This document shows positions 17,601-43,282 of a stretch of DNA of 43,282 nucleotides, one piece after another (position 1 is the first letter of the stretch; the number at the start of each line of letters is the position of its first letter). The notes under the pieces are model-generated. The model had not been told where the DNA came from. It did not search any database and was given only the letters and a program-made list of their open reading frames with translations. The position numbers and the translations under genes are program-made. The DNA is from a virus, in the IMG/VR virus record IMGVR_UViG_3300043411_000846, positions 1-43,282 of that record; one strand, 5' to 3'.

Positions 17601-20600
17601 TGCGTCCAAAGCGCATAGACGGGTTCCGAAACGACAAAGCCCCCACCTACGAGGTCAGCGTCAACATCCCGCAAGAGCAACTCCTGAACTGGGACAAGCC
17701 GCTGAGCAAGCAGAGCGCTGAGATGCAGAAGGTGGCGCTGGAAGCCAGCAAGGAGTTCGACCTCGATCTGGCCGGGCCTTTCGGAAAAGGCGATGAGTTC
17801 GTGCTGGGTACACGCGGCGAAGACTTCTACCGCGCGCTCTCGGACCACTTCGCTCCGGGCGACCGCGACACGGGCGACCGGCAGGCCAGCGACTACCTCC
17901 AGGCCGCTGGCATCCTGGGCCACCGCATGAAGGCCAGCGCCAAGGACGGGGCGCAGAACCCCAACTACGTCATCTACGACGACAGCAAGATCACGACGAA
18001 CTACGTCCACTTCAACGCCGAGGCAGCGACCAAGGTCTCGTCGGACGCCGAAGTGGCCGAAGCCCTCGCCTACCTGAAGAAGACCCGCGGCCCCGAGATC
18101 ATGGTCGAGGTCAGCAAGGACTTCCCGAACGCAGGCGAGTACCTCGAAGCCGAGCGGCTCATCAAACTGTCCACGGTGATTGGCCCAGGTGTCCTTTCCG
18201 TGGCGTACCACGAGGGCCTGCACGACGCCTGGGCCACGGTGCTGAAGAACCACCCCGGCGCGCGTGAGGCGTTGAGCAAGGTGATGTCGAGCCCTGCCAT
18301 GCTGGCCCGGCTCCAGGACAGGCTGGCGAACGAACCCGATGCCCTGGCGGCTATCGCCGACGGTGCGCCGCACGCAGCCGAAGAGCGCGTCGCCTACGCC
18401 TACCAGTTCTGGGCCGCGGGCGAGCTGGACGTGGACAAGCCGGCGACGACCCTGTTTGCTAAGTTCCGCAAGATGCTGCGCAAGGTGTTGGGCATGGTGC
18501 GTGAGAGCGAGACCGCGCTCGACATCATGACCGCCCTGCACGACGGCAAGCTGGCTGAGCCCAGCGCCGCCGGGCGCGTGCTCGGCGAGATCATGGCCCG
18601 CGAGACCTGGAACGCGGACGTGAAGCGCAAGTTCGACGCCGTGGTGCAGAACACCTTCGCTGCGATTGCGCCGAGCAACGACGTGCTGCGCCGCGAAGAC
18701 CTCAGCGGCACGGCCCGGCTGCTGGGCAAGATCATGTTCTCAAACCCGGGCGAAGAGGCTGCGGGCGGCGACCAGGGCTACCTGAACGCACGCAAGCAGA
18801 AGATCGCCCAGTACACGAACTACCTGCATGCGGCCCTGAAGGGGCTGAGCGAGCGCGATCTGGCCGAGGTGGCGAAGCAGCTCCAGCTCAAGACCCCGCT
18901 GGAGAGCATCGCCTACGCCCCGGTGCGCGACGCCGTCAAGGGTGTGCGTGCGCTGACGAAGCGCTACTACGAGTACGCCACGGCGAAGTCGCCGCACGGT
19001 GAGCCGGTGATCAAGCTGGAGTACCTGGGCGACGACCACTACCCGCGCGTGTGGGACCTGGAGCAGCTCGTCGGCGAAGGCGGGCGCGACAAGTTCATCG
19101 CCATGCTGATGCAGCCGAAGTACGCCAAGGCGATGGGTGCTGCCCTGACCATGGCGAATGAAGGGCGCACGAACCCTGTCACGGCGCAGCAAGTGGCCGA
19201 AATGATGTACGAGCGCCTGGTCGAGAAGAACGGCGTGGACGACAAGGCCGCGGACAGCGACCGTGCCGACGACGACCTGCTCGACCCGTTCTTCGCCAGC
19301 CAGAAGGAGCGCAGCTTCAAGTGGCTCGACGACGCGGACGTGGAGCCGTTCCTGGAGAAGGACGTGGTCGGGGCGATGTCTCGCTACCTGCACCAGGGCA
19401 TCCGCGCTGTGGAGTTCAGCCGCCGCTTCGGTGAGCACGGCAAGTTCCTGCGCCCGCTGCTGATCATGAAGGGTGACCCAGCCCTGAACCCGGAGACCGG
19501 CAAGGTCGAGCCCTCGCCCACGCATGGGCGCATCGCCAGCGAGATGTACGAGAGCCTAAAGAAGGCCGGCACGAAGGGCGCTGAGGCTGATGCCATCGTG
19601 GCGCGGCACATGGACGACGTGCGCAAGGCAGTCGCTGCGCACGAGGGCTCGCTGGGCCACACGATCGGCCCGACCTGGCGCAAGTTCAGCAGCGCGGCTA
19701 TGGCCTACCAGAACCTGCGCCTGCTGCCGCTGAGTCTGTTCGCTGCGTTCGGCGACACCATTGGCATCGCTGCACGCTACGGTGACGGCGGCGGGAAGAT
19801 GGCGTTCCAGGCTTTCACGCAGGGCCTGCGCGACGTGTACGCCCGCTGGAAGGACGCCGCGAGCGACATGCCGGCGGAGCGCACGAAGACGATGTGGGAG
19901 AACATCGCCGAGATGGTCGGCGCGGTGGACAGCCACATGTTCCTGGAGCAGATGGGCAAGGCCCACACCTCCGAGTTCACCACGGACTGGGCGCGCAAGG
20001 CGAACCGGGCGCTGTTCATGGCGAACGGCCTGACGGCATGGGACCGCAGCATGCGGGTCTCGGCCACGAAGGCTGCGGTGCTCTTCCTTCAGCACCACGC
20101 AGCGGAACCCGACAAGACCCACAGCACGCGCTGGCTCAAGGAACTGGGGCTCAAGGCTTCGGACATCCCGCTGGACGCCGAGGGCAACCTGATCTACGAC
20201 CGGCACGTGCTGGCTGCGGAGAAGGGCCTGTCCCTGGAGGACGCCACGAAGCAGGCCGAGAAGGTCCACTACGCCATCACCCGCTGGGTCGAGGGCGCGG
20301 TGCTGACGCCGACGGCAGGCCAGCGCCCGACCTGGGCGAGTGACCCGCACTACGCGGTGCTCTTCCACCTGAAGCAGTTCACCTACAGCTTCCACCACAC
20401 GATCCTGAAGCGGGCCTACACCGAGGCAGGGCACGGCAACATGAGCCCGATTGGCGCGCTCATGGCGGCTGTGCCGACGATGGTGGCCGCGGACCTGGTC
20501 AAGGGTGTGCTGCTGGGCGGCGGCTCGCTGCCGGCCTACATGCAGCCGTGGGACCTGGGCGACCACCTGATGCACGGCGTGAGCCGCGCCGGCCTGGGTG

Positions 20601-30284: not shown

Positions 30285-32390
30285 TCACTTGCTGTAGTTG
30301 AAGGCGTGCCCGCCCTCAGAGGACAGTGGGAGGTCTTTGCACCAGTCCAGGGGCACGGTCATGCGCTTGAGCATGCGGGCTGAGGCAGATGACGCTTGCG
30401 TCTTCTTGATGCAAGCCACCATCTCATCGTGCGTGGTCATCACCATGCGCATCGTCTTGCTCAGGTCGAGCATCTGGTACATGACGATGATGCGGGCCAG
30501 GGCCTGCACGATGTTTTCGCAGAGTAGGCCACCGTAAATCTTCTTGCGGATGGGCTGGCCCTTCAGTGTTGAGCCGTAGGTCCACTCGTCCCAGCCCTGG
30601 TCGCCGACGGCCTTCTTCAGGTCAGGGTAGTGCAGCCGCATGCCGTTCGGTAGCCAGATGCAGTCCTTTTCCCAGTTCAGCGGGCCGTGGCTGCCTTCGC
30701 GCCCGGCAGCCATGTCTTCGATGATGCCGTTGCAGATGTCCCAGCCCTTGGCGATCTTGTCGTTCTTGCGGCGGTAGGTTTGCACCCAGCGCTTCGCTTC
30801 TTCGAGCGTGATGAAGATGGGCGGGCCGCCGAGTGCGCCTTTCGCCAGGGTGATCTGGAGCTTGGCTGGCCCCATCTGGAAGCCGAGGCCGAGAACGCAT
30901 ACCTTACCTACGAACCGCTCGGTCTTGTCGGCCTTTGTGACGGAGCGGTGGTAGAGATCCCCGGCCATCAGGCAGTACGGATCGAGACCAGTACCTGCGT
31001 CGCTGGCGCGAAACGCCGCCAAGAGATCGTTCTGCCCCCACAGCCAGGCGTTGACCCGGGCTTCGATCTGGCCTGAGTCGCCGACGGCCAGCTCGTGGCC
31101 GGCAGGGGCTTCGATGGCTTCACGGAGGGCGCCGCCGCGCTTCAAGTTCTGGAGATTGCGCTTGTCGCCGCCACCCAGCCGGTGGGTGTGGGCGCGGCTG
31201 TAGGCGTAGTAGGCGGGCAGGGTGCCGTGCTTGGCTGAGGTCAGCATGCGCTCGGCGCGGGTGATGTTCGTCGTGCTTTTGACGGCGATGCGGGTGTCCA
31301 CGAGCAGGCGCAGACGCTCGGACTTCGCAGCCATCTCCTTGATGCCCTCGGTGGTGTCCACGTCGGGCGTGGAAGTCCAGCGTCTGGTGTCGTCAGGCAG
31401 GTTAACGAACTCCACGTCGTCCTTCGCGAATGCGTAGGCCCACTTGCCGTCCTCGTCGGCCTCGCGCGCGGCCTTGTCTTTCTTCATCCAGGCCGGGCTC
31501 AGCTTGACGGGCGGGTCCACGCCTTCGGCGATGAGCAGATCGGCGAAGCGGTTCGTGCTGCCGACGATGCGCTTGACAATGAGGATGTCGCGCTCCTTGC
31601 CTTCGAGTGCGCGCTCGATCTTCGTCTTGAGCACGGTCTTGTCGGCGTAGAACGGCTTCGGGTCGAGCACGGAGAGGAACAGTTTCTCGCGCTCGGCCAG
31701 CTCGCGCGCCAGCTCGGTCTCGACGCGCGCCACATTCACGCGCAGGATTGGTTCGCAGAACATGCGGACCAGCACGTCGATGAGGTCGATCTCTTCGCTG
31801 GGCAGCGCGTAGATCATCTCCTGGAACACGCGCAGGGTTTCGTCGCCGTCGTTCAAGCAGTACGTGGAGACCTGGTTGAATAACGTCGGCGACCAGTCTC
31901 GAACGCCTTTCGTCGTTTCGAGGATGTCGTGCAGCTTGCCTTGCCCACCGTAGTACACAGAGACTTCGTCCAGCCCGGCTCCGATCTCGTTTGAGTGGAT
32001 ACCTCGTGCCATGGACAGAGTGTCGTAATAGAAACTCGGTACCACTCCGTAGTGGTGTGAAAGGATGAGACCGTCGAACTGAGTGTGGTGGCAGAGCAGG
32101 CCATGAGTGCCCCAGTTGATTTTGCGGAGTTCGGCTCTGATCTTGTTCGGCGGGACGATGCGGGCGGGCTTCAGGCCGACCTTCAGGTACATCATCTGAG
32201 CCTTGAAGCGCGGGTCGCGGACATATTCGGAGGTGGACAGTTTGGAGAGTGTGTAGTCCTGGTCGTAAAAAGTTTCAAAGTCAATGACGACCAGGCGAGA
32301 CCAGTCCACCTCCTTGGCGAGAAACACGGGGCGCTGAAACTTGTCAGCGATCCGTGCGTTGACTTTCTTGAGGACAGATTGCCAGCTCAT
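30285..32390 (-). CDS. family A DNA polymerase with 3'-5' exonuclease
   Basis: The 701-aa protein (ATG 32390, TGATG junction) has a DEDDy exonuclease: VIDFETF (Asp37, Glu39), HTQFDG (Asp106), YCLND (Tyr177, Asp181). The polymerase motifs follow: motif A GDSGQIEAR with catalytic Asp438; motif B R492-FVG-K496-VCV-L500-GLGF504-QMG; motif C THDE (Asp655, Glu656). It would be the replicative polymerase of the phage. There is no 5'-3' nuclease domain. Position 500 corresponds to E. coli Pol I Phe762 and is Leu here, a variant associated in published phage studies with slower, more faithful synthesis and often with temperate lifestyle. Confidence 0.93.
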   Translation of the reverse strand: MSWQSVLKKVNARIADKFQRPVFLAKEVDWSRLVVIDFETFYDQDYTLSKLSTSEYVRDPRFKAQMMYLKVGLKPARIVPPNKIRAELRKINWGTHGLLCHHTQFDGLILSHHYGVVPSFYYDTLSMARGIHSNEIGAGLDEVSVYYGGQGKLHDILETTKGVRDWSPTLFNQVSTYCLNDGDETLRVFQEMIYALPSEEIDLIDVLVRMFCEPILRVNVARVETELARELAEREKLFLSVLDPKPFYADKTVLKTKIERALEGKERDILIVKRIVGSTNRFADLLIAEGVDPPVKLSPAWMKKDKAAREADEDGKWAYAFAKDDVEFVNLPDDTRRWTSTPDVDTTEGIKEMAAKSERLRLLVDTRIAVKSTTNITRAERMLTSAKHGTLPAYYAYSRAHTHRLGGGDKRNLQNLKRGGALREAIEAPAGHELAVGDSGQIEARVNAWLWGQNDLLAAFRASDAGTGLDPYCLMAGDLYHRSVTKADKTERFVGKVCVLGLGFQMGPAKLQITLAKGALGGPPIFITLEEAKRWVQTYRRKNDKIAKGWDICNGIIEDMAAGREGSHGPLNWEKDCIWLPNGMRLHYPDLKKAVGDQGWDEWTYGSTLKGQPIRKKIYGGLLCENIVQALARIIVMYQMLDLSKTMRMVMTTHDEMVACIKKTQASSASARMLKRMTVPLDWCKDLPLSSEGGHAFNYSK

Positions 32391-32761
32391 CAGAGGTTCA
32401 CGGTGTAGTTGAAGTTGAGGGTGTTGCCAGGTCGAATCACGTGAATTACGGCTAAGCCAATTTTTGAGATCGGGTCCCCAGTAACTGGCGCAAAGAGCGT
32501 GCCCTCCATGACTGTTACCTCTTTGAGGAACGGGCCGAAATAGGCTGAGTGATTGCCCGCCAGGACTTCTCCGAGAAGGGCTCGTTTGTACCCAACACAT
32601 TTCAGCTCTTTGCCATCGGGGCCGAGCAACCCGAGCTGGTATTGCTTTGGGTAACTCCCGGTGAGCCTGGCGGTGACCTTGTCGAGCGCAGCCTGGTCTT
32701 GAGCAGAACGGCGGAGCAATTTGAAGTGCAACTTCATGCGATTGAAGAAGGCGGGGATCAC
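32390..32761 (-). CDS. hypothetical phage protein near the polymerase
   Basis: The 123-aa frame starts at GTG 32761 (GTGA overlap); an ATG follows at 32737 (MKLHFKLL), without a ribosome site. It contains an N-terminal helix with QDQAALDKVTARLTG, resembling the tail motif of the small proteins downstream, and then a longer beta-rich domain (LGLLGPDGKELKCVGYKRAL, SKIGLAVIHVIRPGN). The latter pattern resembles decoration-like or substrate-binding folds but is not identified. It lies between helicase and polymerase. Confidence 0.6.
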   Translation of the reverse strand: MIPAFFNRMKLHFKLLRRSAQDQAALDKVTARLTGSYPKQYQLGLLGPDGKELKCVGYKRALLGEVLAGNHSAYFGPFLKEVTVMEGTLFAPVTGDPISKIGLAVIHVIRPGNTLNFNYTVNL

Positions 32762-34164
32762 GCTGCCACCGCCTTCGCAGCCTTCTTCACCTTGTACGCG
32801 CCCGCAGTCAGCGTCTCGAACATGCCAAGCAGGTTCGCCATGCGCGCGCCCTTACCCATGCAGTTCTCGTAGGCCCACTCGTCGGCCTCGCAGTCCTCGG
32901 CTAGGATGACGATGGTCTCGGTCTTCTTCGTTTGACCGATGCGGCGCTGGCGCGATGACGCCTGCACGAACATGGCGGTGTCGTGCGTGGGTGAGGCCCA
33001 GATTGTTGAGGTGCCACGGGTCAGGGTCTGTCCGTGGCCGACGGTCTTCGGGTGAGCGAACAGGGCGTCGAACTCGCCGTTCTGGTAGCGTTGCACGTAG
33101 GCCAGGCGGTCAGCGTCGCTGGTGCCGCCGTCGAAGACTGCGTACTTCAGGCCGCGCTTGTCGGCTTCAGCGACGAGCAGATCGCGCTGGTGCTTCCACA
33201 TGAACAGCACGAGCGGATGTACGCGCTGCTCGACCAGGTCGAGGATCATCTCGTAGCGCCCAGTGTCGATGACATGGTACTGGTCAGGCGACGAGTAGAC
33301 CGCACCGCTGGCAACTTGGAGCAGCTTCGTGGCGACAGCAGCAGCGTTGATGGCGGTGATGTGTCCCGCTTTGCCCAAGTCCAAGAGCTGAGTGACTGTC
33401 ATCTTCTCGTACGCTGTGCGTTGGCCTGCTGACATCGTGTAGCTCAGCGTGTACTGGTGGTTCTCAGGGATGTCGGCACAGTCGTCGAGCCGGTGGCGGA
33501 TCGTGATGTCCGAGAGCAGGCTGAACACGGCTTCTTCGGCGCCGTCCTTGTCCTGCCACTCGATCATCTTCGAGCCGTGGCCGACCTGGACGGGCGTGCA
33601 TACGGACTGGCGGAAAGGGAAGTACAGCTTGCCCAGGCGGGCGCCGCCGTCGAGCAGCAGGGCCTGGTGCCACACGTCTACGATCGTGCGGCTGTTGGGC
33701 GTCGCGGTCATCGCAGCGCGGTAGGTGAAGTGCTTGACGATCTTGAAGATGGCCTTCGAGCGCTGGCTGTTGTAGTGCTTGAAGGCGTCGCTCTCGTCCA
33801 TGATGATTTCGCTGAAGCGGGCGAAGAACGCCTTCGGCTGCTTGGCGAGCCAGTTCACGGCATCATGGTTCGTGATGTAGGCGTCAGCCTTTGTGGCGAA
33901 CGCCTCGGCGCGGTTGTCGGCGTTGGCGACGACGGTTTTCAGGGTGGGGGCGAACTTCTTGAAGTCTGCGGCCCACACAGAACGCAGCGTGGAGCGGATG
34001 CCGATGACGAGGGCGCAGCCGCCGCCCTTCTTGCGGCGCTTCTCGAAGGCCCAGATGCGCACGCCAGTCTTGCCCGTGCCGGCGTCGCTCATGTCGAAGA
34101 CGATGGGCGTCTTGTCGTTGTGCTTGAGGCTGACGAGTTGGTGTTTGAAAGGCTTGTAGATCAT
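32758..34164 (-). CDS. SNF2-type DEAD-like helicase/ATPase
   Basis: The 468-aa protein starts at ATG 34164 (ATGA). Motifs: Walker A DAGTGKT (27-33), IIMDESD (Asp123, Glu124) as motif II, MTATPNS as motif III, then in the second RecA lobe VLFMWKHQRD, DALFAHPKTVGHGQTLTRGT and QASSRQRRIGQ as motif VI. This is the superfamily 2 SNF2/DEAD-like architecture of phage replication helicases. It would unwind or remodel DNA using ATP. It lies between the small helix-turn-helix-like protein and the polymerase-adjacent gene, in the replication block. Confidence 0.9.
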   Translation of the reverse strand: MIYKPFKHQLVSLKHNDKTPIVFDMSDAGTGKTGVRIWAFEKRRKKGGGCALVIGIRSTLRSVWAADFKKFAPTLKTVVANADNRAEAFATKADAYITNHDAVNWLAKQPKAFFARFSEIIMDESDAFKHYNSQRSKAIFKIVKHFTYRAAMTATPNSRTIVDVWHQALLLDGGARLGKLYFPFRQSVCTPVQVGHGSKMIEWQDKDGAEEAVFSLLSDITIRHRLDDCADIPENHQYTLSYTMSAGQRTAYEKMTVTQLLDLGKAGHITAINAAAVATKLLQVASGAVYSSPDQYHVIDTGRYEMILDLVEQRVHPLVLFMWKHQRDLLVAEADKRGLKYAVFDGGTSDADRLAYVQRYQNGEFDALFAHPKTVGHGQTLTRGTSTIWASPTHDTAMFVQASSRQRRIGQTKKTETIVILAEDCEADEWAYENCMGKGARMANLLGMFETLTAGAYKVKKAAKAVAA

Positions 34165-34415
34165 GGCTTGAGTGGCTTGATGTGTGCGCGGACGAGTTCG
34201 TCGCGCACTTGGTGAACGTAGCCAGGCCGCACGTTGCAGTGCATGGCGATTTCGCCAGGGAACATGCCTTGCTGGAGGTACCACTTGATGTGACCGACGA
34301 CTTCATCGGAGTGCTTGGTGCGGCAGTTGCGGCGGCGGTCTACCTGTGCGCGTGGGCGGCGAGCCAACAAGTCGCACGGCTTACCAAGGCTGTGGAGAAT
34401 GGGCTTACCGCTCAT
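34161..34415 (-). CDS. helix-turn-helix-like small protein
   Basis: The 84-aa product starts at ATG 34415 (ATGA overlap with the upstream stop). After a basic N-terminus (RRPRAQVDRRRNCRTKHSDE) it has a helix-turn-helix-like segment, VVGHIKWYLQQGMFPGEIAM, followed by HCNVRPGYVHQVRDELVRAH. It resembles small DNA-binding adaptors encoded beside phage helicases. Target unknown. Confidence 0.6.
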   Translation of the reverse strand: MSGKPILHSLGKPCDLLARRPRAQVDRRRNCRTKHSDEVVGHIKWYLQQGMFPGEIAMHCNVRPGYVHQVRDELVRAHIKPLKP

Positions 34416-34660
34416 GACGTGATCCTCTCGGTGACGCGCTGGAGCTGGTATGCGTCGATCAGCTTCTGGCAAGCTGCGTAAGGATCAAATAGCCCTGTGG
34501 TGAGTTCGAGCCAGAGTCGTTCACCTGGGGTGAGACCTTCTCTGCTGTGAAGACGTATGAGCAAGGCTTTGGCGTAACCGCCGGAATACTCGATGAACTT
34601 GTCGTCGTTTGGGACTTTGAAGAAGTCCTTCGTGACGCCGGTCACACCCCAGACGCTCAC
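34412..34660 (-). CDS. VTxRITQ-tail family protein
   Basis: GTG 34660 overlaps the nuclease stop (GTGA) and opens an 82-aa frame: VSVWGVTGVTKDFFKVPNDD, a KALLIRLHSREGLTPGERLW helix and the end ACQKLIDAYQLQRVTERITS. The terminal VTERITS matches the VTxRITQ tails of the proteins near 25448, 29657, 29872 and 30051. It is beside replication genes; function unknown. Confidence 0.6.
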   Translation of the reverse strand: MSVWGVTGVTKDFFKVPNDDKFIEYSGGYAKALLIRLHSREGLTPGERLWLELTTGLFDPYAACQKLIDAYQLQRVTERITS

Positions 34661-35358
34661 CGCCGTACTCCCACTTTGCACTGGCCTCCGTTCCACGGGC
34701 CGTACTGGCACCACTGGCACGAGTAGACGTTCGGGTTGGGTGGGAAGTCGGTGCACTCAGTGAGCGCGCGACCGCGACGGTCGAAGTTCGGCTTGAAGCG
34801 AAGAATCTGTGCGCGGGTGAAGGTGGCGGTGGTCAGCTCCTTCACGTCGAGATACCACAGCTCGGTGGTGACCTCTTCGATCTCAGGGTAGCGCAGCACG
34901 GCGTTGAGGGCGTAGAGCTGGGTCTGCTCGCTGTGCTTCACTTCGTTGCCGAAGCGCTTGCCCGACTTGTAGTCGATAACGATGGCAGACCAGTTGTTCG
35001 GCAGCACGATGGCATCGACCTTGGAGCGGTGCCAGCCGGTGCGCCAGTCGGTTGGCACCCAGTCCTGGTCCACCGCCCATTCACCTTCCAGGCTCACGAT
35101 GCCCATGGCATGGAGGCGGCGGAGGTGATCGAACTCATGAGCGAATTCCCGCATCTCAGGAATCTGGGCGTCCACCTTGCCGTTGACGTAGTCCTCGCAC
35201 GCCTGGTGGATGCGGGTGCCGCGGTCGTTGGCGTGTTCGAGCTGGCCGGGCTTCAGGGGACGTTCGGGCTCAGGAATCTTCTGGTCGTGCTTGAGCCAGG
35301 CTAGGAACTTGCACTTCTCGAAGTCACCGAGCTTTGAGTGGGACCAGCTTGAAATCAT
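34657..35358 (-). CDS. Cas4/RecB-like PD-(D/E)XK nuclease with Fe-S cysteines
   Basis: The 233-aa protein has a PD-(D/E)XK core: Glu93 (LEGEW), KVDAIV (Asp115), VIDYKSG (Asp129, Lys131) and QTQLYA (a QxxxY-like element). His51 lies in an N-terminal helix (RIHQACE). Cys16 near the N-terminus and the C-terminal set C214-x2-C217-x9-C227 with C202 nearby resemble the 4Fe-4S ligands of Cas4 and AddB-type nucleases. It starts at ATG 35358, just after a copy of the 20-bp motif. An end-processing exonuclease for replication or recombination is likely. No CRISPR array is near, so a Cas role is not proposed. Confidence 0.85.
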   Translation of the reverse strand: MISSWSHSKLGDFEKCKFLAWLKHDQKIPEPERPLKPGQLEHANDRGTRIHQACEDYVNGKVDAQIPEMREFAHEFDHLRRLHAMGIVSLEGEWAVDQDWVPTDWRTGWHRSKVDAIVLPNNWSAIVIDYKSGKRFGNEVKHSEQTQLYALNAVLRYPEIEEVTTELWYLDVKELTTATFTRAQILRFKPNFDRRGRALTECTDFPPNPNVYSCQWCQYGPWNGGQCKVGVRR

Positions 35359-35377
35359 GATTGCCTTGAGTTGTGAG

Positions 35378-35397
35378 ATCGAAGTGCGATCTTAGAC
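35378..35397 (-). promoter_or_regulatory. 20-bp near-palindromic motif
   Basis: ATCGAAGTGCGATCTTAGAC (+ strand) spans the gap before the nuclease ATG and includes the stop codon of the preceding gene. It is one of five copies with ATCkAAG...TAGAC ends. A regulator-binding site or phage promoter is possible. Confidence 0.55.
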
Positions 35398-36054
35398 CAG
35401 CGCACCCGACTCTTCAAATTCGTGGTCGCTGTCCGTGAGGACTTCGTCGACGTGTTCGTCGGAAGTCAGGTAGTTGTGCTCGGCTTCGAGCTGGCTGTAA
35501 ATCCAGTCGGCGAAGTCACGCATGAGTTGGGTGAGTTGCTCAACGTCCTCGGGTTCAGGATCGTCGGTGTCGTCAACATCGAAGTAGACGGTGACCTCCA
35601 TCATTCCTGAATGACAGTAGCCAGAACCGCCGAGCTTGGTGTCTGCTCCAAGTTTTTGCCCGTGCTTGATGCGGGCGGAAACTTGAAGCAATGCAAGTTG
35701 TTCGGCGATTCGATGAAGCTCGCTGTCTGTGACGAACTCGTTGGCGATTTCGTCAACAGCTTCAGACCCAGGTCTGGGTGAGTAGCGCCCTTCAAAAGAG
35801 GCGCCGTCGCCCTGGCTGCTGAAGCCGCTGAAATAAATGCGGGGGTCTTGGCGGTCCTTACCATTCACCAGTTTGACGGTTTTGGTGAAGATAGTGATGC
35901 CGAGCATGCCAGCAGCTTCGACGGCCTGCTCATAGGTGTAGTCCCACCACTCGTGCTGAAGGTCGTGATCGCGGTAGTGATCGCGCGCACGGGCCTTGGC
36001 CCTGTCACTCAGCTCGTGGAACCGATAGACCGTGCGCTCGATCACGCGGGGCAC
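35392..36054 (-). CDS. conserved phage protein (FSGFxSQGDGAxFEG type)
   Basis: The 220-aa protein starts at GTG 36054, two bases after the preceding stop. It has the recognisable core IERTVYRFHELSDRAKARAR, WWDYTYEQAVEA and RIYFSGFSSQGDGASFEGRY, followed by an acidic C-terminal region. The FSGFxSQGDGASFEG sequence marks a family very common in tailed phages and usually left without assigned function. It is coupled to the upstream repeat-domain gene and precedes the nuclease. Confidence 0.75.
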   Translation of the reverse strand: MPRVIERTVYRFHELSDRAKARARDHYRDHDLQHEWWDYTYEQAVEAAGMLGITIFTKTVKLVNGKDRQDPRIYFSGFSSQGDGASFEGRYSPRPGSEAVDEIANEFVTDSELHRIAEQLALLQVSARIKHGQKLGADTKLGGSGYCHSGMMEVTVYFDVDDTDDPEPEDVEQLTQLMRDFADWIYSQLEAEHNYLTSDEHVDEVLTDSDHEFEESGALV

Positions 36055-36056
36055 GA

Positions 36057-36278
36057 TCAGGCTTCCTTGCTGTCCAGGTACGCCACCAGGGCGGCGATGC
36101 CGGCCTCGCGCTTGGCGATCTCGGCGACCAGCTTCTTCGGCTGGGCCTTGATCTTCTTCAGACCTTCGATGACGACCTCTTCCGAGGCGATCAGATCGAA
36201 GACCTCGCCGTCGGCCATCTTGCTGATGTCGGCGCCGTTGACGAAGGTAGTGGTGGTGATGGTGATGGGCTTGGACAT
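36057..36278 (-). CDS. possible internal start for the C-terminal module
   Basis: ATG 36278 lies in frame within the longer gene and is preceded by AAGGAAG at a good distance, a better ribosome site than that of many genes here. Translation from it would give the 73-aa MSKPITITTTTF... protein alone. That protein has the form of a familiar free-standing small phage product, so in-frame re-initiation, as well as a fusion, is plausible. Confidence 0.45.
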   Translation of the reverse strand: MSKPITITTTTFVNGADISKMADGEVFDLIASEEVVIEGLKKIKAQPKKLVAEIAKREAGIAALVAYLDSKEA

Positions 36279-37025
36279 GGTGTCTTCCTTGACAGGGGTG
36301 GAGGGGAGAGAAGCGGTCTCGTTGACCGTAGTGGAGATGTTGGAGGTGGGTTCGAGAGGGTCGGTGCCAGGCTTGACGCGGTATTGGCTCGGGGCCTGTG
36401 AGAAGCCGAGCTTTTTGCGAAGCCCATTGGTTCCTTCGTCGTTCCACTTACCATCTTGGTGAAATTGAATGATCGCACCGCGTTCGCGAGCGGTCATCAA
36501 TGCGCCCTGCCAAGTGAGCGGCGCGGCCTTCGGCTTGATGCGGTAGGCTTTCTCGCCTTCGGGGCTGTTGAACGTGAGAGTGCCAACTTTGTCAGTTCCC
36601 TCGTCAAGCCATTCGCCGTCGTGGAAGAGTTGGATCGTCTCGCCGGCGGCGCGTGCCGCAATGAGTTCTTCTTTCCAGGTCATAGGCGGTTCCTTCGTGG
36701 TGGGCGGGTCCTCGATCAGCAATGATGGAATGCCCGCGTACTTATTGGTCTCGGTCTGCGGGATGCTGTAGCGGTCGTCGAAGTAGCGGCGGAGTTGATC
36801 GCGGTCTTCGACAGTGTGTTTGCCGATCCAGTGAGGCCATGTGTTGATTCGCGGTATAGCCCATGGGGTGCGGGCGGTGACTAACCAATCCGCGATGATG
36901 GCGCGGCGTCTGCCGTAGGTGTCGTTGCGTCCAGGAGGTCGTTTGGTCCCGTACTCCCTGTAGAACTTGCTCTCGTTCTCCAGAACGAGTGCGATTTCTT
37001 GGAGTTGTCCGGTCGTGAAGCTCAT
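36057..37025 (-). CDS. repeat-domain phage protein with fused C-terminal module
   Basis: The 322-aa protein starts at ATG 37025 (ATGA). Residues ~20-90 form an N-terminal domain with several Arg and aromatic residues. Two copies of a ~50-residue module follow (WKEELIAARAAGETIQLFHD and WQGALMTARERGAIIQFHQD, each ending with a GEWLDEGTD or GKWNDEGTN motif). The last 73 residues (MSKPITITTTTFVNGADISK, EGLKKIKAQPKKLVAEI) form a separate module that can also start at 36278. The C-terminal module resembles a small stand-alone phage protein. No catalytic motif is seen. Confidence 0.65.
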   Translation of the reverse strand: MSFTTGQLQEIALVLENESKFYREYGTKRPPGRNDTYGRRRAIIADWLVTARTPWAIPRINTWPHWIGKHTVEDRDQLRRYFDDRYSIPQTETNKYAGIPSLLIEDPPTTKEPPMTWKEELIAARAAGETIQLFHDGEWLDEGTDKVGTLTFNSPEGEKAYRIKPKAAPLTWQGALMTARERGAIIQFHQDGKWNDEGTNGLRKKLGFSQAPSQYRVKPGTDPLEPTSNISTTVNETASLPSTPVKEDTMSKPITITTTTFVNGADISKMADGEVFDLIASEEVVIEGLKKIKAQPKKLVAEIAKREAGIAALVAYLDSKEA

Positions 37026-38130
37026 ACGTCCAGCTTGATGGTCTCGCCAAAGGGTGCGATCACGTTGGTGGTCATCACCCACATGACGGGGTAGTCGGGA
37101 GCCTGCTTCGGGAACGGCCCCTCACCGTCGGTGAGGTAAATGAAACAGGCTGGCTTGAGGTCGTGCTTGCGCACGTACTCGAAGGGCGGACGGAAATCAG
37201 TGCCGCCTCGGCCAGGCATCTTGAACTCAGGCACCTGGTACTCGTCGTACGTGTCCACGCGCTGCACACGCGCGTCGCAGTAGATGTTCGTCATCTGCTT
37301 TGGGCGAGCCATCAGTTTGATGGAGTTGATCTCGCTGCCGAAGGCGTCAAGCTGAAACTGATCGACGCTGCCGCTGGTGTCGATGCTGTTGACAATGAGG
37401 CCCATCGAGCGGCTGTAGCGGCTGGGCATGCAGTAGCCGAAGGGCAGCATGCGGCGCTGAAGGCGGTTCCACGAGGTCGTGTTCTTCGAGTGCAGCATGG
37501 CGAAGCGGCGCAGGCGTTCGGCCCAGTTCAGCTTGCCGGTCTTCAGTTCTTCGACGAAGCTGATCATGGAGCCGGGCATCTTGCCTTGCTTCTTCGCTTC
37601 GATCGCGGCCTGGATGCCGGCGATCTTCCACTCGGCTGCCTCGACCTCGATCACGTTCGGGTCGCCAGGCTTGAGGGTGTCCTGTGCACCGTAGCCGCCG
37701 CCTTGTTGGCCGGGCTTCCCCGGGCCAGGCGGCTGGTCGGGCAGCAGGGTGTAGATGTGGTCCGCCGACATGCCCTCGAAGGCTTTGTTGTAGAGCCAGG
37801 TGTCCTTGAGCTTCATGCCGTCGGCCTTGAGATTGGCGTTGACGACGTAGTCGATGGCCGCGCCCCACTTGTCGGGGTCGCGCGGGCCGCAGCGGTTGAT
37901 GTGGTCGAGCAGCGGGTGCTGGACCTCGTGGCACACCGCGGACATTTGCAGCTCTTCGTCGAGGCTGAGGAAGTAGTTCGGGTTGTAGTAGATCGCCGTG
38001 TTGCTGACTTGCAGCGTGTCCACCGAGTAGTCCTGATGGGCTTCGAGGCGCAAGGCCAGGATGCCGTAGAACGGCTGGTCGATGTAGAGCGCGGTGCGAG
38101 CGCGGATGAACGCGGTCTCTGCTTGTTTGT

Positions 38131-38134
<4 letters not shown>
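37022..38134 (-). CDS. zincin-VWA (DUF2201-type) metallopeptidase-like protein
   Basis: The 370-aa protein has an N-terminal domain with HEVQHPLLDH (His69, Glu70, His73), the HExxH zinc-binding motif, and a C-terminal von Willebrand A-like domain with the MIDAS sequence SIDTSGSVD (Asp252, Ser254, Ser256) and later FIYLTDGEG. This DUF2201-like pair is usually encoded next to a MoxR-type ATPase, as here (39702-40694). By analogy with CbbQ/CbbO- and MoxR-VWA-type pairs it may be a remodelling partner, but its target is unknown. Confidence 0.8.
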
Positions 38135-38450
<316 letters not shown>

Positions 38451-38466
<16 letters not shown>

Positions 38467-38687
38467 TGAATTGAGAAGAGAACTGCGGTCATTGGGAATG
38501 AGCAGTTTCCGCACGGGTCGAGCACGGTGTTCTTTGTCGGGCCTTTCAGTGCGATCTCCCCAAGTCCTTTCGTTGTGCCCCAGCGGCGAATTACTGAAGC
38601 GTCAGAGAGTTGAACGAGGTCACCTTTACAGGGAACGACCTCGCCAATCAGCACCCAGCGTGATTGGAGGACGTAGATGCGTTTCAT
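38451..38687 (-). CDS. small hypothetical phage protein
   Basis: The 78-aa product starts at ATG 38687 (ATGA overlap). It begins MKRIYVLQSRWVLIGEVVPC, a strand-rich SH3-like opening, followed by DLVQLSDASVIRRWGTTKGL and a Cys-containing end (DPCGNCSFPM). The sequence is well formed and operon-linked. No function is recognised. Confidence 0.6.
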
Positions 38688-39517
38688 TGGTACGCTTTCA
38701 TCTTCGCCAAGATCGCGTCGGCTGCGTCGGCGGTCTTGGTACGGGTAGTGGCGCTGGTGCGCAGTGATGTGGGGCTGGGCAGCATGGCGTCCAGCTCCAA
38801 GCGCAGCTCTTCGAGTAGCGGGTCGCCGGTGAGGTTGAGCGCCGGCAGGCAGGCCACCAGGTCGCGCGCGTTCGTCACCAGGGTGTCGAAGATGCGCGGG
38901 TCTTCCTTGCGCAGCGTGGTGCTGATGTGACTGACGACATCCTGCACGCGCGTATAGCACTCGCGCATGGCGGCTTGGAATTTGGCGTCGTTCTCGGCGG
39001 TGAGCTGCTCACGGATCATGGCCGTGGCCTCGTCGCCCACGTTGACGCGGAAGTCGTCGGCGCTGGGGATCGGCTTGAGGCTGATGCGGATGTCGAACTT
39101 GTCGGCGATCTGGCTGATCGTCGGGAAGTCCTTGAGGCTGTAGAGCGTGCCCAGGCGCTTCGGTGCAGCGGCCAGGAGCTGCGGGTAGAGGGCCACGAAG
39201 TCGCGGCGGAGCTGCTCGTCGGCCAGGCGCATGTGCTTCATGCCAGTCGTGTACTCCTGGTACAGGGCTGAGGGCAGGATGCGGTCGCTGTTGTCGTCCC
39301 ACGGTAGCGTGAGCTTGTTGTGGAACGCACGCATGGCGCTGGCACTGGCTGTGAGCTGCTTGAGGTGGGCACGGTCCACGAGGGTCTTGCGGAAGTCACC
39401 GCTGTCGCTCGTGGCGTTGTGAGCTTGGGTCACCTCACGAGTGACCTTGCTGTCGATACGCTGGGCGGTCCAGCGAGAGATCGACAGGTTGGCGAGCATG
39501 GCTTTGTCTTGCAGCAT
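38684..39517 (-). CDS. DUF3150-like protein of the MoxR/VWA module
   Basis: The 277-aa protein is largely helical. It starts with LANLSISRWTAQRIDSKVTR, contains MKHMRLADEQLRRDFVALYP and ends in an Ala/Thr/Lys-rich tail. The N-terminal LxxLxIsxWtgrr.D..v..e pattern and the location between a MoxR ATPase and a VWA/zincin protein fit the DUF3150 family, which accompanies such ATPases in phage genomes. I infer an adaptor or regulator within that complex. The structured RNA lies directly upstream. Confidence 0.65.
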   Translation of the reverse strand: MLQDKAMLANLSISRWTAQRIDSKVTREVTQAHNATSDSGDFRKTLVDRAHLKQLTASASAMRAFHNKLTLPWDDNSDRILPSALYQEYTTGMKHMRLADEQLRRDFVALYPQLLAAAPKRLGTLYSLKDFPTISQIADKFDIRISLKPIPSADDFRVNVGDEATAMIREQLTAENDAKFQAAMRECYTRVQDVVSHISTTLRKEDPRIFDTLVTNARDLVACLPALNLTGDPLLEELRLELDAMLPSPTSLRTSATTRTKTADAADAILAKMKAYQ

Positions 39518-39540
39518 GAAGTGACTCCAGAGAAAGGGGT

Positions 39541-39693
39541 GGGTGAACTACACAGTGCTGGGGAGTGGGCCTACCGACTCGCTGTCACGGCACCCGTTGT
39601 TAAGAGATGCTGGAGATTCGTTCCGGCCTTGGCTGGACTCGCCCCTACGTGCTCAGGTCTTCGATCCACTACAGCAGGGTGTGCAGCTCACCC
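39541..39693 (-). ncRNA. structured non-coding RNA (unassigned)
   Basis: In the longest gene-free stretch of this arm, the minus-strand 5' end GGGTGAGCTGCACA (39693-39680) pairs fully with TGTGTAGTTCACCC (39554-39541), 14 bp including two G-U pairs. The stem continues inward with TGCTG/CAGCA (39676-39672 with 39560-39556) and AGTGG/CCACT (39670-39666 with 39568-39564). Between are further possible helices, e.g. CCAGCC/GGCCGG near 39635-39620. On the + strand the two G-U pairs would be A-C mismatches, so selection appears to act on a minus-strand RNA. No family is recognised. Confidence 0.65.
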
Positions 39694-39701
39694 ATAGAAA
39701 C

Positions 39702-40694
39702 TCAAACGAGAATTGATTGGTTCTCGATGCCCCATTTCGCGTAGCGCGCCGTGTTCAGGATGTTCTTGTCACGGGCCACAGCGGCGCGGACGTAGGCCAC
39801 CTGGATTTCGCGGCCGAGGCGTTCGACGTAGTCCATGACCCGGTCGAAGTTGCTGGCCTTGGACTTGTCGCTCAGGGTCATGACCACGGCGTGGGTGACA
39901 GGCGTCGAGCCGGGCAGTTGCGCACGCTTCGGGTCCATCAGGATGCTGTCGATGTCGGGCATGTCCTTGATGTCGCGGACGAAGCCGAAGAACTCGCCGG
40001 CAGCGCCTTCACCGACCGCGCCCTTGATCAGCTCCAGGCGGTGGTTGAGCGAGTAGTCGCGCTTGTAAATCTTGTCGGCGGCGTACCACGAGCGCGGTGT
40101 CGGGAAGCAGCGTGGGTTCTGGACCGGGTCGAACACATGCAGCGCGTGATTCTTCAGCTTGATGTACGCGCGGAAGTGCGGGTGAATGTCGTCGGCTGCG
40201 GCTTGCACCAGCCAGTCCGTCACGTCGATCTCGTAGTCGATGTGCTCGAAGCGGTTCGCCAGCGGCGCGGGCATCTGGTACGTGACACCGCGGTCGCTGG
40301 AGTTGTTGCCGGCAGCGATGATCCCCCAGTTGTCGGGGAACTCGTACGAGCCGATGCGGCGGTCGAGGATGAGCTGGTAGCAGGCGCCAGAGACGGCGGG
40401 CTCGGCCTGGTTCATCTCGTCGAGGAACAGGATGCCTGGCGCGTCGCCTTTGCGGGGCAGGAAGTCGGCCGGCAACCACTCCATCTGCTTCTTCTTGCCG
40501 TCAGGCCACGGGAAGCCGCGGATGTCGATGCTGTCGAGCTGGCCCACACGCACGTCGGCGAGGGTGAGCTTGTGGTGTTTGCAGTATTGGCGGATCAGGC
40601 TGGACTTGCCAGCGCCGGTCTTGCCCCAGATGAAGACGGACATTCGGTCGGCGAGCAGGCCCGGCAATACGGTCGTGATGTCAGAGGGTTTCAC
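39702..40694 (-). CDS. MoxR-type AAA+ ATPase
   Basis: The 330-aa protein starts at GTG 40694, with AAAGGA ten bases upstream. Motifs: Walker A GKTGAGKS (24-31), Walker B ILFLDEM (Asp92, Glu93), Sensor-1 region GIIAAGNN and ANRFEH, which provides a candidate arginine finger. The length and features fit the MoxR/CbbQ branch of AAA+ proteins, which partner VWA-domain proteins. The VWA/zincin protein is encoded downstream in the same arm. The ATPase probably remodels a target with that partner; the substrate is unknown. Confidence 0.88.
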   Translation of the reverse strand: MKPSDITTVLPGLLADRMSVFIWGKTGAGKSSLIRQYCKHHKLTLADVRVGQLDSIDIRGFPWPDGKKKQMEWLPADFLPRKGDAPGILFLDEMNQAEPAVSGACYQLILDRRIGSYEFPDNWGIIAAGNNSSDRGVTYQMPAPLANRFEHIDYEIDVTDWLVQAAADDIHPHFRAYIKLKNHALHVFDPVQNPRCFPTPRSWYAADKIYKRDYSLNHRLELIKGAVGEGAAGEFFGFVRDIKDMPDIDSILMDPKRAQLPGSTPVTHAVVMTLSDKSKASNFDRVMDYVERLGREIQVAYVRAAVARDKNILNTARYAKWGIENQSILV

Positions 40695-40708
40695 GGGATG
40701 GAAGTCCT

Positions 40709-40867
40709 TTAGTTGAGAGTGGCGACGATGTAGCCGAGGCTGAAGAACAGGGCACCGACGAAGACGAAGGTGCCGAGCACGATCAGCAGCAAATTGCGGA
40801 ATTGCTTGGTGCGGGAGAAGGGGAGGAAGAGCGGCCTGCCGATCTCCTGCTCGTATTCCTGATTCAT
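40709..40867 (-). CDS. 52-aa membrane protein
   Basis: ATG 40867, preceded by AAGGAG at a good distance, opens a 52-aa frame: MNQEYEQEIGRPLFLPFSRT, then a hydrophobic helix (LLLIVLGTFVFVGALFFSLG) and TAA at 40711-40709. It is a single-pass membrane microprotein with a basic N-terminal flank (RTKQFR). It sits between the winged-helix-like gene and the MoxR gene and follows a copy of the 20-bp motif. Function unknown. Confidence 0.7.
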   Translation of the reverse strand: MNQEYEQEIGRPLFLPFSRTKQFRNLLLIVLGTFVFVGALFFSLGYIVATLN

Positions 40868-40882
40868 GTGGCTCCTTGTGTG

Positions 40883-40902
40883 GTCGAAGTTAGAGCGTAG
40901 AC
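40883..40902 (-). promoter_or_regulatory. 20-bp near-palindromic motif
   Basis: GTCGAAGTTAGAGCGTAGAC (+ strand) lies 16 bases from the start of the 52-aa membrane protein and includes the stop codon of the preceding gene. It matches the copies at 128, 9521, 29306 and 35378. Confidence 0.55.
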
Positions 40903-41249
40903 CCGAGAGCGAACACGCTGTTCGGGGCAGACTGGATCGCGGTCTCCACGATCCCTGATGGGCGGGTCTGGGGCGGCTTTGTCTTGGGCCGGGGCGTAAG
41001 CTTGGGCGCGTCCGGCTTGTCGCCCAGGTCGTAGAGTGGGCGGAGGTGAACCTTGCCGCCTTCCAGGTCGGAGCGGGTCCATCCGCAGATGTAGGCGCGC
41101 TTGGGAGCCTTGCGCATGCGCGTGAGGGCCATGCTGGTGGGCACCCGGCTCATACCCTTCTCCCGGGCGATCTGCGTGGCCGTCATGGGGCCATTGCGAG
41201 CCAAAGCGTCGATGATCCGGTCGACGTAGTAGCCATGGGGCTTGGGCAT
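40890..41249 (-). CDS. winged-helix-like small DNA-binding protein
   Basis: The 119-aa protein starts at ATG 41249 (TGATG with the HAD stop). YYVDRIIDALARNGPMTATQ, IAREKGMSRVPTSMALTRMR and AYICGW form the helix-turn-helix with wing typical of MarR/winged-helix folds (the MTATQIAREKGMSRVPTSMAL recognition region). The C-terminal half is Pro/Lys-rich. It is presumably a DNA-binding regulator; no target is known. The 20-bp motif overlaps its end. Confidence 0.65.
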   Translation of the reverse strand: MPKPHGYYVDRIIDALARNGPMTATQIAREKGMSRVPTSMALTRMRKAPKRAYICGWTRSDLEGGKVHLRPLYDLGDKPDAPKLTPRPKTKPPQTRPSGIVETAIQSAPNSVFALGSTL

Positions 41250-41833
41250 CAGAAGTCTCCCGGCGCCACCTGGGCACAGACGATGCCGTTGCGGCGCCAC
41301 ATATCCACGACACGCTGACGGTCGTCGAAGACCATGACAAGACGAGCGCGGTCTTTGGGGGAGAGGGCGTGGAGCCACGACTCCTTGAGCTGGTCGTCGG
41401 GCGTGTAGTCGCCGGCGGGGCGCATCTTGAGGTTGGCCCAGATGACTCCGTGCTTCCAGAGCCAGGTGACTGTCTGCTCTTCTACGGTGTCCATCCGGCC
41501 GCTCCAAATCCAAGCATCAGCGCGTTCACGAATTGCGTGGAATACGTTGAGGACCGCTTCGATTGGCGTGTCATCTACGCACGCGGCGTGGAAGGCGTCC
41601 CAGTCGGGCTTGAACTCGATGTCGCTGGGGTCATAACTCCAAAAGCCGCTGCTGTTGAAGGGGAACTCAACAAAATAATCGCCTTCGATACTCGGGTTCG
41701 GACCGCGGTAGATTGCCGGCGTTCCGTTCACGAGCACGGGCGAGCCGTTTTGGAACTGCACGAAGTGCCGGCGATGCTTCAAGTCCGCAAGCGTGCCGTC
41801 GAGGTCGAAGATATAGAGGGGTGTGGTGTTCAC
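41249..41833 (-). CDS. HAD-superfamily phosphatase, polynucleotide 3'-phosphatase-like
   Basis: The 194-aa protein has HAD motif I FDLDGTLAD (Asp10, Asp12), a WSGRMDTVEEQT region after a helical cap, and a C-terminal VMVFDDRQRVVDMWRRNG with two aspartates, followed by CAQVAPGDF. The last element is a hallmark of the 3'-phosphatase domain of T4 PseT/Pnkp-like proteins. It would remove 3'-phosphates from nucleic acids, preparing ends for ligation. No kinase domain is present. Confidence 0.85.
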   Translation of the reverse strand: MNTTPLYIFDLDGTLADLKHRRHFVQFQNGSPVLVNGTPAIYRGPNPSIEGDYFVEFPFNSSGFWSYDPSDIEFKPDWDAFHAACVDDTPIEAVLNVFHAIRERADAWIWSGRMDTVEEQTVTWLWKHGVIWANLKMRPAGDYTPDDQLKESWLHALSPKDRARLVMVFDDRQRVVDMWRRNGIVCAQVAPGDF

Positions 41834-42018
41834 GTTGTTTCTTTCTGAACTTGTTTCGTCGCCAAGCCAGCAGCGAACACCTCAGCGTAGTGATCGCGCC
41901 GGCCACCGAATTTCGTACGCTTGGACCAGTCGTCCCAGAACTCCTGGAAGCCGGGAGGCTCCTTGGTCTTCGGGGACTTGACGGGTGCAGAGCGCAGGCG
42001 GATGCGGGGCTGGGTCAT
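41830..42018 (-). CDS. small hypothetical phage protein
   Basis: The 62-aa product starts at ATG 42018 (ATGA) and contains FQEFWDDWSKRTKFGGRRDH followed by a short helix. A similar aromatic-Trp pattern (FKAFWLCWERRPTLKRFRLD) occurs in the 84-aa protein encoded at 42149-42403; the two may be distant paralogues. Function unknown. Confidence 0.55.
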   Translation of the reverse strand: MTQPRIRLRSAPVKSPKTKEPPGFQEFWDDWSKRTKFGGRRDHYAEVFAAGLATKQVQKETT

Positions 42019-42152
42019 GAGGTCAGTTCGTCAGGTACTTCCACTTCATCACCCAGCTTGCTGGCGACGAAGCAGCGCATTGCTGCGATCAGGGAGGGTG
42101 GAGCAGGTTTAAGCGAGGGCGCATCTTTTACGGTTTCGACTGGCTTGCTCAT
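42015..42152 (-). CDS. 45-aa hypothetical protein
   Basis: ATG 42152 (overlap ATGA with the previous stop) to TGA 42017-42015 encodes MSKPVETVKDAPSLKPAPPS, then a short helix ending CFVASKLG and an acidic tail. It overlaps the next gene by 4 bases. The exact fit at both ends argues that it is real. Function unknown. Confidence 0.5.
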   Translation of the reverse strand: MSKPVETVKDAPSLKPAPPSLIAAMRCFVASKLGDEVEVPDELTS

Positions 42153-42403
42153 GCTGGTGTCTCCGGGATGCTCAGCCCCGTCGTGTACTCGGGCGAGTGG
42201 TCGGGCGAGGACATGTAGGGGCGATGAGGAATGACGGCCTTCGGCTCGATCCAGCCCGCGGCGATGAGGCGCTGGCGCTCATTGAAAGCGCCGATGGCCT
42301 CGAAGGAGGCAGCGACGTAGGCGAAGTCTAGGCGGAAGCGCTTGAGCGTGGGGCGACGTTCCCAGCAGAGCCAGAATGCCTTAAAGGTGGCGGGCTCTTT
42401 CAT
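42149..42403 (-). CDS. hypothetical phage protein
   Basis: The 84-aa product starts at ATG 42403 (ATGA). MKEPATFKAFWLCWERRPTL opens it, then a helical segment and a proline- and tyrosine-rich C-terminus. The FxxFWxxWxxR element is like that in the protein at 41830-42018. No known family. Confidence 0.55.
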   Translation of the reverse strand: MKEPATFKAFWLCWERRPTLKRFRLDFAYVAASFEAIGAFNERQRLIAAGWIEPKAVIPHRPYMSSPDHSPEYTTGLSIPETPA

Positions 42404-42525
42404 GACAGCACCAAGAGAGCTGCACCAATGATCGCGAACCAGACGGCCGCATCAGGGCCGACGAAGCGGGCGCCGATGCCAACTGAGAGACAGATCGCAC
42501 CGGCGAAGAACATGCGGTTTCTCAT
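42400..42525 (-). CDS. 41-aa membrane microprotein
   Basis: ATG 42525 overlaps the preceding stop (ATGA). The product MRNRMFFAGAICLSVGIGAR, followed by FVGPDAAVWFAIIGAALLVL, has two short hydrophobic segments, like a hairpin membrane protein. It ends exactly at the next gene's start (ATGA). Function unknown. Confidence 0.55.
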   Translation of the reverse strand: MRNRMFFAGAICLSVGIGARFVGPDAAVWFAIIGAALLVLS

Positions 42526-42620
42526 GGTACGTAACCCCATAGTTCGTAGAGGTAGAAGACGACTCGCACGGCGAGGTGAAAGATCACCACGCCGGCGAGG
42601 AATTGGAGGACCTTGCTCAC
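42522..42620 (-). CDS. 32-aa membrane microprotein
   Basis: GTG 42620 overlaps the preceding stop (GTGA) and encodes VSKVLQFLAGVVIFHLAVRV then VFYLYELWGYVP, one hydrophobic helix. It overlaps the next ATG (ATGA). This is the smallest gene here and is supported by coupling at both ends, though such short frames can be coincidental. Confidence 0.45.
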   Translation of the reverse strand: MSKVLQFLAGVVIFHLAVRVVFYLYELWGYVP

Positions 42621-42790
42621 ACGCCCCACTCTTCGGCGAGGTCCGCGGCGAAGAGTGCGCCGCGCTCTTCGGCGGCAAGTTCTGCCATTTCTGCCAGCAG
42701 GTCGTGCGCAGCGGCGGCGTTGATGCCGCGCTCCTTCTCCACGCGCTCCAGCAGGTCGTGCAGGGCCAAAATCAACTCGTTGTCGTCCAC
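42617..42790 (-). CDS. small helical protein next to attC
   Basis: GTG 42790 has GAGGTG just upstream; another in-frame GTG is at 42796. The 57-aa product (VDDNELILALHDLLERVEKE, INAAAAHDLLAEMAELAAEE) is acidic and helical. Its upstream region is directly the attC site (42814-42870), so this gene is the first one after it in the leftward direction. Function unknown. Confidence 0.5.
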   Translation of the reverse strand: MDDNELILALHDLLERVEKERGINAAAAHDLLAEMAELAAEERGALFAADLAEEWGV

Positions 42791-42813
42791 GTTCACCTCG
42801 CTTCGGATACAGG

Positions 42814-42870
42814 GCCTAACACGCAATTCAAGCCGACGCCTGACGGCGCGGCTTAATTGCAACGTTAGGC
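42814..42870 (+). other. integron attC recombination site (57 bp)
   Basis: The 57 bp open with GCCTAAC (42814-42820, R'') and close with GTTAGGC (42864-42870, R'). The inner arms GCAATTCAAGCCGACGCC and GGCGCGGCTTAATTGC are inverted repeats except for two extra bases (a C and an A) in the left arm, leaving a TGAC loop. Two unpaired bases on one arm are the extrahelical bases by which integron integrases recognise the folded bottom strand. The L'' and L' sequences (AAGCCGACGCC, GGCGCGGCTTAA) are nearly identical to those of the aadA-type attC. Confidence 0.85.
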
Positions 42871-43275
42871 CTTCTTCGGCAGGCGCACTTGCAGTTGCGT
42901 GCCGTCCTTGCAGTTAATGTCCAGCACCGTCCCGCGCTCCCAGCGCTGGGCGTGCGCATAGCCCCCGCGCTTGGCGCACAGTTCCTCGGCCACAGCAATG
43001 TCGGGCGGCTGCACCATGTCCACGCAGCCCGCCAGTGCGGCAGCAACCCCGGCGGCAAAGAAAACCCGCGCCAGGTGGCATAGCGCCAAGGTCGGGGTGG
43101 TCACGTCATAGGGGCCGCTGTCGTAGGTCAGCGCACGCCAAAGCCGGTTGTCGTTGTGCTCTCGCAGCACTGCAAACGCCATGTCGGCAATCTGGCGGTC
43201 TGTCAGCTTGTGCGCTTCTGGGCCAGGCCTAACAGGTCGGTCAACCGGAGCTTCGCCGGCAGCAGTCGGGTTCAT
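42865..43275 (-). CDS. cassette-borne protein, possible lipoprotein fusion
   Basis: The frame runs from ATG 43275 to TAA 42867-42865, the stop lying inside the R' core of attC. The first ~20 residues are weakly coding and overlap a second GCCTAAC core (43227-43233). A middle part reads LTDRQIADMAFAVLREHNDN and RLWRALTYDSGPYDVTTPT. The last ~70 residues contain a lipoprotein-like signal (FFAAGVAAALAGC) and a small Cys-containing domain (LCAKRGGYAHAQRWERGTVL, INCKDGTQLQVRLPK). Two separate proteins may be joined here, and a TTG start before the signal is possible. Homologues are not recognised. Confidence 0.55.
   Translation of the reverse strand: MNPTAAGEAPVDRPVRPGPEAHKLTDRQIADMAFAVLREHNDNRLWRALTYDSGPYDVTTPTLALCHLARVFFAAGVAAALAGCVDMVQPPDIAVAEELCAKRGGYAHAQRWERGTVLDINCKDGTQLQVRLPKKA
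43227..43233 (+). other. possible R'' core of a second attC, truncated by the window
   Basis: GCCTAAC recurs 357 bases after the R' of the first site, which is a normal cassette length. The following 49 bases to the window end do not contain a clear complementary right arm, so a complete site cannot be shown. Confidence 0.3.
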
Positions 43276-43282
43276 CGTTACT

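Follow-up and report, generated by a model that had tools for sequence, protein, structure and literature searches.

A phage genome represented by a 43,282-bp IMG/VR virus record (henceforth 'the window', meaning the whole stretch of DNA analysed) appears to carry part of an integron cassette array of a phage type, in which the cassette genes run in reverse polarity to their attC sites. We put the probability of this reading at about 75%. As judged by its fold and covariance score, the site at 42814-42870 is a true integron attC inside a phage. It is complete (attC1; + is the top strand), with a 4-nt apical loop and with R'' and R' cores GCCTAAC (42814-42820) and GTTAGGC (42864-42870) that pair at 7/7 positions and fit RYYYAAC and GTTRRRY. 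Two extrahelical bases (C and A) in the 5' arm of the + strand mark that strand as the top strand. An earlier sequence-only reading of this DNA had described an attC site with these coordinates, cores, paired arms and two extrahelical bases and had called for an attC covariance model and a search for further sites; both the hairpin fold and the model bore the description out. The hairpin was markedly more stable than shuffled sequence (z -6.7 and -7.5 for the two strands; 0/200 shuffles folded equally well), and a model trained on 37 strongly covarying bacterial attC sites, none of them from the window, scored the + strand at 53.8 bits (E 1e-12) and the - strand at 29 bits. attC1 was the sole match when the whole window was scanned with a core-plus-fold scanner (background: 8 false positives per 1.8 Mb of Markov-shuffled sequence), and an Rfam search at the site matched no family.

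Two cassettes and a second attC site adjoin attC1. Cassette B (42865-43275, -) is an ORF of 136 aa whose stop codon lies in the R' core of attC1, as had been noted from the sequence, and whose start codon lies within attC2 (43228-43282, +). Only the 5' part of attC2 (GCCTAACAGGTCGGTCAACCGGAGC...) is present, the remainder being broken off by the contig end, and the window holds one complete attC site and one truncated site. The partial covariance match of attC2 (11.3 bits, 43227-43282) is weak on its own; its arm is very similar to the complete attC in viral contig G003, GCCTAACAGGTCGGTTAACCGGAGC. The 136-aa protein has no Pfam or PHROGs match, and its AlphaFold model is poor (mean pLDDT 58). 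The gene of cassette A (42617-42790, -; 57 aa, GTG start) begins 24 nt past the core, diverges from its relatives towards the 3' end, below about 42650, where it also overlaps the following phage gene. It is preceded by a 5' leader (42791-42813, -), CCTGTATCCGAAGCGAGGTGAAC, which has a CCGAAGC-type motif. Leaders of this type follow 13/103 phage attC sites on the gene strand and 0 on the other side, and the motif was rejected as a general cassette mark because it is present at just those 13 sites. Both cassettes and their neighbours lie on the strand opposite to the attC1 top strand and read into a phage early operon (30285-42621, -), in which PHROGs and Pfam matches indicate a DNA polymerase, a helicase, an AAA ATPase, a PNKP-like phosphatase and small genes; every gene from 30 to 43 kb is on one strand. 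The window is not a complete integron: neither an intI gene in cis (no TIGR02249 match, in line with the sequence-only reading) nor an attI was found in it, the attI-like motif of related phages described below is absent from it, and the array has no attC or attI boundary at its left end (cassette A).

Between ~0.1 and 41.4 kb the window shares a collinear backbone with viral contig G004 (60.9 kb), and protein matches continue to ~41.9 kb. No attC was found in the searched stretches of G004 and no homologue of the 136-aa protein in its record, so that the cassettes of the window were probably added, as a variable part, to the early operon at its upstream end. Among phage records the closest relative of the window DNA polymerase is that of Pseudomonas phage KPP25 (37%), which we take to be a virulent phage. 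Two other features of the backbone are a GC-rich tandem repeat in the early operon (38224-38444; 6/27-bp units, GCCGTC-like) and a single ORF of 3035 aa (11669-20776), the first 1655 residues of which are 77% identical to G004.

The cassette gene had at first been taken for an ordinary one. It is antisense to attC, and on ORF calls and annotated genes such a reversal is the rule in these phages. We scanned IMG/VR and bacterial genomes with one identical attC pattern and scored which strand has a coding ORF ending at the core. At bacterial loci the ORF and attC were on the same strand in 63/65 cases (opposite in 2/65), whereas the covariance-model sites of viral contigs (n=120) gave 69 opposite, 8 same and 43 not scorable, i.e. 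opposite-strand ORFs at 69/77 scorable sites. By contig, 19 of the 24 with a scored site were mostly opposite, 3 mostly same and 2 tied. Fisher's test (p 2e-28, viral vs bacterial) assumes independent sites and hence overstates the difference; site finding also differs slightly between the sets (scanner for bacteria, covariance model for viral contigs), and by the scanner alone the viral count was 24 opposite and 2 same. The pattern used in the survey is biased towards one attC type, and most of the bacterial set comes from Xanthomonadales and Burkholderiales. Two further lines of evidence do not depend on the ORF classifier: Pfam matches identify five methyltransferase cassettes, in G001 and G018, whose genes run antisense to attC, and the reversed arrangement is also seen in the GenBank annotation of H101 and MW202573, both complete phage genomes. 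A strict core scanner gave no convincing attC in phages TJE1, P12002L, H101 and MW202573, and the covariance model at E 0.5 found sites in H101 and MW202573 and none in TJE1, P12002L or Rctr41k. Canonical counter-examples exist, most clearly G012, with one site each in G002, G006, G011, G014, G017, L153 and MW202573; at the MW202573 site the automatic polarity call conflicts with the GenBank genes. An isolate contig used as a control, G022, had canonical polarity; this record (IMGVR_UViG_2834908352_000001) contains a canonical bacterial integron at 37564-48225, with intI and about 12 attC sites.

The components of the window array are shared among viral contigs in different combinations. The 136-aa gene is present in three others at 93-97% identity, with protein homology that begins just past the attC core and an attC-encoded N-terminus that differs in each of the contigs, and the arrays concerned adjoin or are flanked by phage genes. 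It was not found in a pattern-seeded scan of 84,980 bacterial and archaeal genomes, in plasmids or in 50,697 phage records. Between the two alternatives that the sequence-only reading had left standing, this distribution supports cassettes captured by the phage as a mobile payload and lends no support to a prophage running into a host integron array. Cassette A has a relative in L151 (92.9% nucleotide identity over 42651-42820), which starts from the core and stands behind a different attC, and another in L152 (90% over 42656-42806), while attC1 itself recurs in L153 beside other genes; the 136-aa gene, attC1 and the 57-aa gene thus each recur with different partners. In a methyltransferase cassette common to G016 and G018 (90% over 845 nt), the start and the end of the homology are both at most 2 nt from attC cores. 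Over all pairs, homology ended within 12 nt of a core edge in 14/86 cases against 4.5 expected by position. Ends at cores are what recombination at core sites, followed by divergence, would leave; most ends lie elsewhere.

Some related phages have what the window lacks. Five viral contigs contain a platform of reversed cassettes, a common attI-like motif and intI, which in three of them is followed by a phage integrase. In G003 and G026 the intI genes (416 and 427 bits, over the NCBIfam cut-off) have the cassettes on one side and a phage tyrosine integrase on the other, past which come oppositely oriented lysis or tail genes. At its opposite flank the G003 array has Erf-like, exonuclease and SSB genes, and the arrays of G001, G003 and G026 are each flanked on either side by phage genes. 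G018 has an exonuclease VIII gene upstream of its array and an intI broken off by the contig end. In G003, G026 and G018 the attI-like region lies on the 5' side of intI and consists of two GTTAGCGGACAGG-type repeats followed by GGTGTCnnnGAATTnAAGTT(A/G)G with a GTT core at the end. A search of IMG/VR with this motif returned these three contigs and two new ones, G059 and G060, which have intI (partial in G059) and reversed cassettes; RecE and RecT genes lie upstream in G059, and a second tyrosine recombinase match lies beyond intI in G060. The motif was absent from the 18 bacterial genomes of the attC survey. The IntI proteins of G003, G026 and G018 form one clade (support 98/96) apart from the sampled bacterial IntIs, and the G003 IntI shares 52.6% identity with proteins annotated as intI1. 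The four regions examined beside intI showed no LexA-like box. Many other viral contigs with attC are without intI. Two further integrase genes were recorded in passing. The GenBank "integrase-like protein" of Virus Rctr41k (KX853513.1; L092 4680-5678) matches integron integrase at 383 bits, which exceeds the NCBIfam cut-off, and no attC was found near it. The intI region of viral contig G017 (42229-43343) matches a Thiobacillus MAG contig at 96% identity, possibly reflecting a host link or a prophage.

The attC sites may also contribute to translation. Among sites of at least 80 nt (n=46), the variable loop contained a Shine-Dalgarno-like motif and a start codon on the gene strand in 25/46 and on the non-gene strand in 4/46, and shuffled sequences gave a mean of 6.5 and a maximum of 14. 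In all four phages with the 136-aa gene, its longest frame begins in the neighbouring attC. We infer that attC passes a start signal to the next cassette. As for cargo, 13 of 72 cassette ORFs match possible anti-defence families, and 9 of these are DNA methyltransferases (N6_N4_Mtase 8, MT-A70 1; the others are Lar 1, Tad2-like 1 and Acb2/Tad1 hairpin 2). RNA ligase, DUF1643, HTH, ASCH and RMF matches also occur, and in most cassettes, those of the window among them, no family was recognised.

We considered several other explanations for the array. That attC1 is a terminator or another phage hairpin resembling attC by chance would suit a hairpin this strong that separates two genes within an operon; we find this scarcely credible, since its score, extrahelical bases and cores match those of bacterial attC and its relatives sit between exchanged cassettes. 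The position of the site near the contig end, together with the end of G004 collinearity near 41.9 kb, might instead betray an assembly chimera in which a phage contig was joined to a cassette array. Such a join is very improbable given that the genes from 30 to 43 kb are on one strand, that cassette A overlaps the next phage gene and that independent contigs also have arrays embedded in phage genes. A somewhat larger but still small chance attaches to the idea that the viral contigs are prophage edges entering bacterial cassette arrays, i.e. a host integron beside a prophage. The window array does lie at a contig end, the virus collection does hold host arrays, since the record of isolate contig G022 contains a canonical one with a bacterial intI, and G017 has an IntI almost identical to one from the Thiobacillus MAG. 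This idea is, however, difficult to reconcile with the phage genes on both sides of the G001, G003 and G026 arrays, with the like arrangement of the complete phage genomes H101 and MW202573, with a polarity opposite to that of bacterial arrays, and with the failure to find the cassette gene in the bacterial genomes and plasmids scanned.

The remaining explanation, that the phage picked up the cassette segment from another phage through recombination, ordinary or illegitimate, and that its attC sites are now passive passengers, is unlikely but deserves serious attention. It would account for the lack of intI in the window and in many other contigs and for the lost 3' end of cassette A, and illegitimate recombination has been proposed by Qi et al. 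for phage CALINs (PMC9892861). Against fossil cassettes of this kind stand the intact attC structure, the different combinations of attC, 136-aa gene and 57-aa gene among phages, with several breaks at cores, and the retention of a full-length intI and a conserved attI-like motif in some phages.

A reversed, phage-type array would be expected to work as follows. IntI, acting on a folded single strand, would set cassette placement by the orientation of attC. In the platform phages the attC sites point away from attI/intI, as usual, and the cassette ORFs, being antisense to attC, point towards attI/intI. With the ORFs turned round in this way, only transcription from the phage side would give sense mRNA; the array most likely extends a phage operon and would be transcribed by read-through from it rather than from an integron Pc promoter. 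Each ORF would often take its ribosome-binding site and start codon from the neighbouring attC, and the array may in part be a stock of exchangeable anti-defence genes. As the window has no intI, movement of its cassettes would need an IntI from another (co-infecting) phage, a prophage or the host. We give even odds to the broader proposal that phages own an integron lineage, with its IntI clade and attI, and that this lineage maintains a distinct set of oppositely oriented cassettes, with expression driven by phage operons, translation starts provided by attC loops and cargo enriched in anti-defence genes; together these would constitute a combinatorial counter-immunity system traded between phages, those of lytic type included.

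Clusters of attC in phages are already known. Qi et al. (2023) described 17 CALINs of phages, as well as integrons or integrases in four temperate phages, and observed recombination by IntI1 of 5/6 phage attC sites tested (PMC9892861). Their CALINs likewise combine attC and cassettes without intI inside phage genomes and have methyltransferase cargo; their text makes no mention of reversed ORFs, of a phage attI/IntI lineage or of cassettes common to phages, and H101 and MW202573, in which re-examination here revealed the reversed arrangement, are two of their phages (PMC9892861). Bellas et al. (2020) list five genes as "integron gene cassette" in the variable islands of phages from cryoconite; the passage concerned gives the annotation only and does not describe attC, polarity or intI (PMC7468147). 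Sedentary and mobile integrons of bacteria are alike to the phage platforms in attC structure, an integron-type IntI, an attI with an R box, tandem cassettes and stops in cores, and differ in that their ORFs run along attC. Compared with class 1 mobile integrons, the window is without intI and its cassette has no plasmid match. The reversed integron of the Treponema type differs in that transcription of its intI runs towards attI (PMC3607928). In the platform phages intI transcription runs away from attI, and the inverted elements are the cassette ORFs. We found no description of reversed phage cassettes or of a phage attI in the open-access literature, which set the scope of the search; the reversed polarity, the attI/IntI lineage and the shared cassette pool are thus apparently undescribed in the literature searched.

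If the proposal holds, integrons are not only bacterial, and phages run their own version with cassettes that face a phage promoter, by which they would retain and exchange methyltransferases along with other anti-defence genes. Both the fast turnover of phage accessory regions and the gain of single genes with recombination sites at their edges would then have a concrete mechanism. Two largely separate cassette pools are predicted, since a reversed cassette would lie antisense to a bacterial Pc promoter, and attC polarity would serve as a marker that separates phage from bacterial cassettes in metagenomes. As a separate observation, type IV pilin-like genes (L009 19702-20181, -, and L013 18477-18944, -) adjoin the arrays of two phages, G001 and G003; they have about 73% DNA identity, and such genes perhaps function in superinfection or as receptors.
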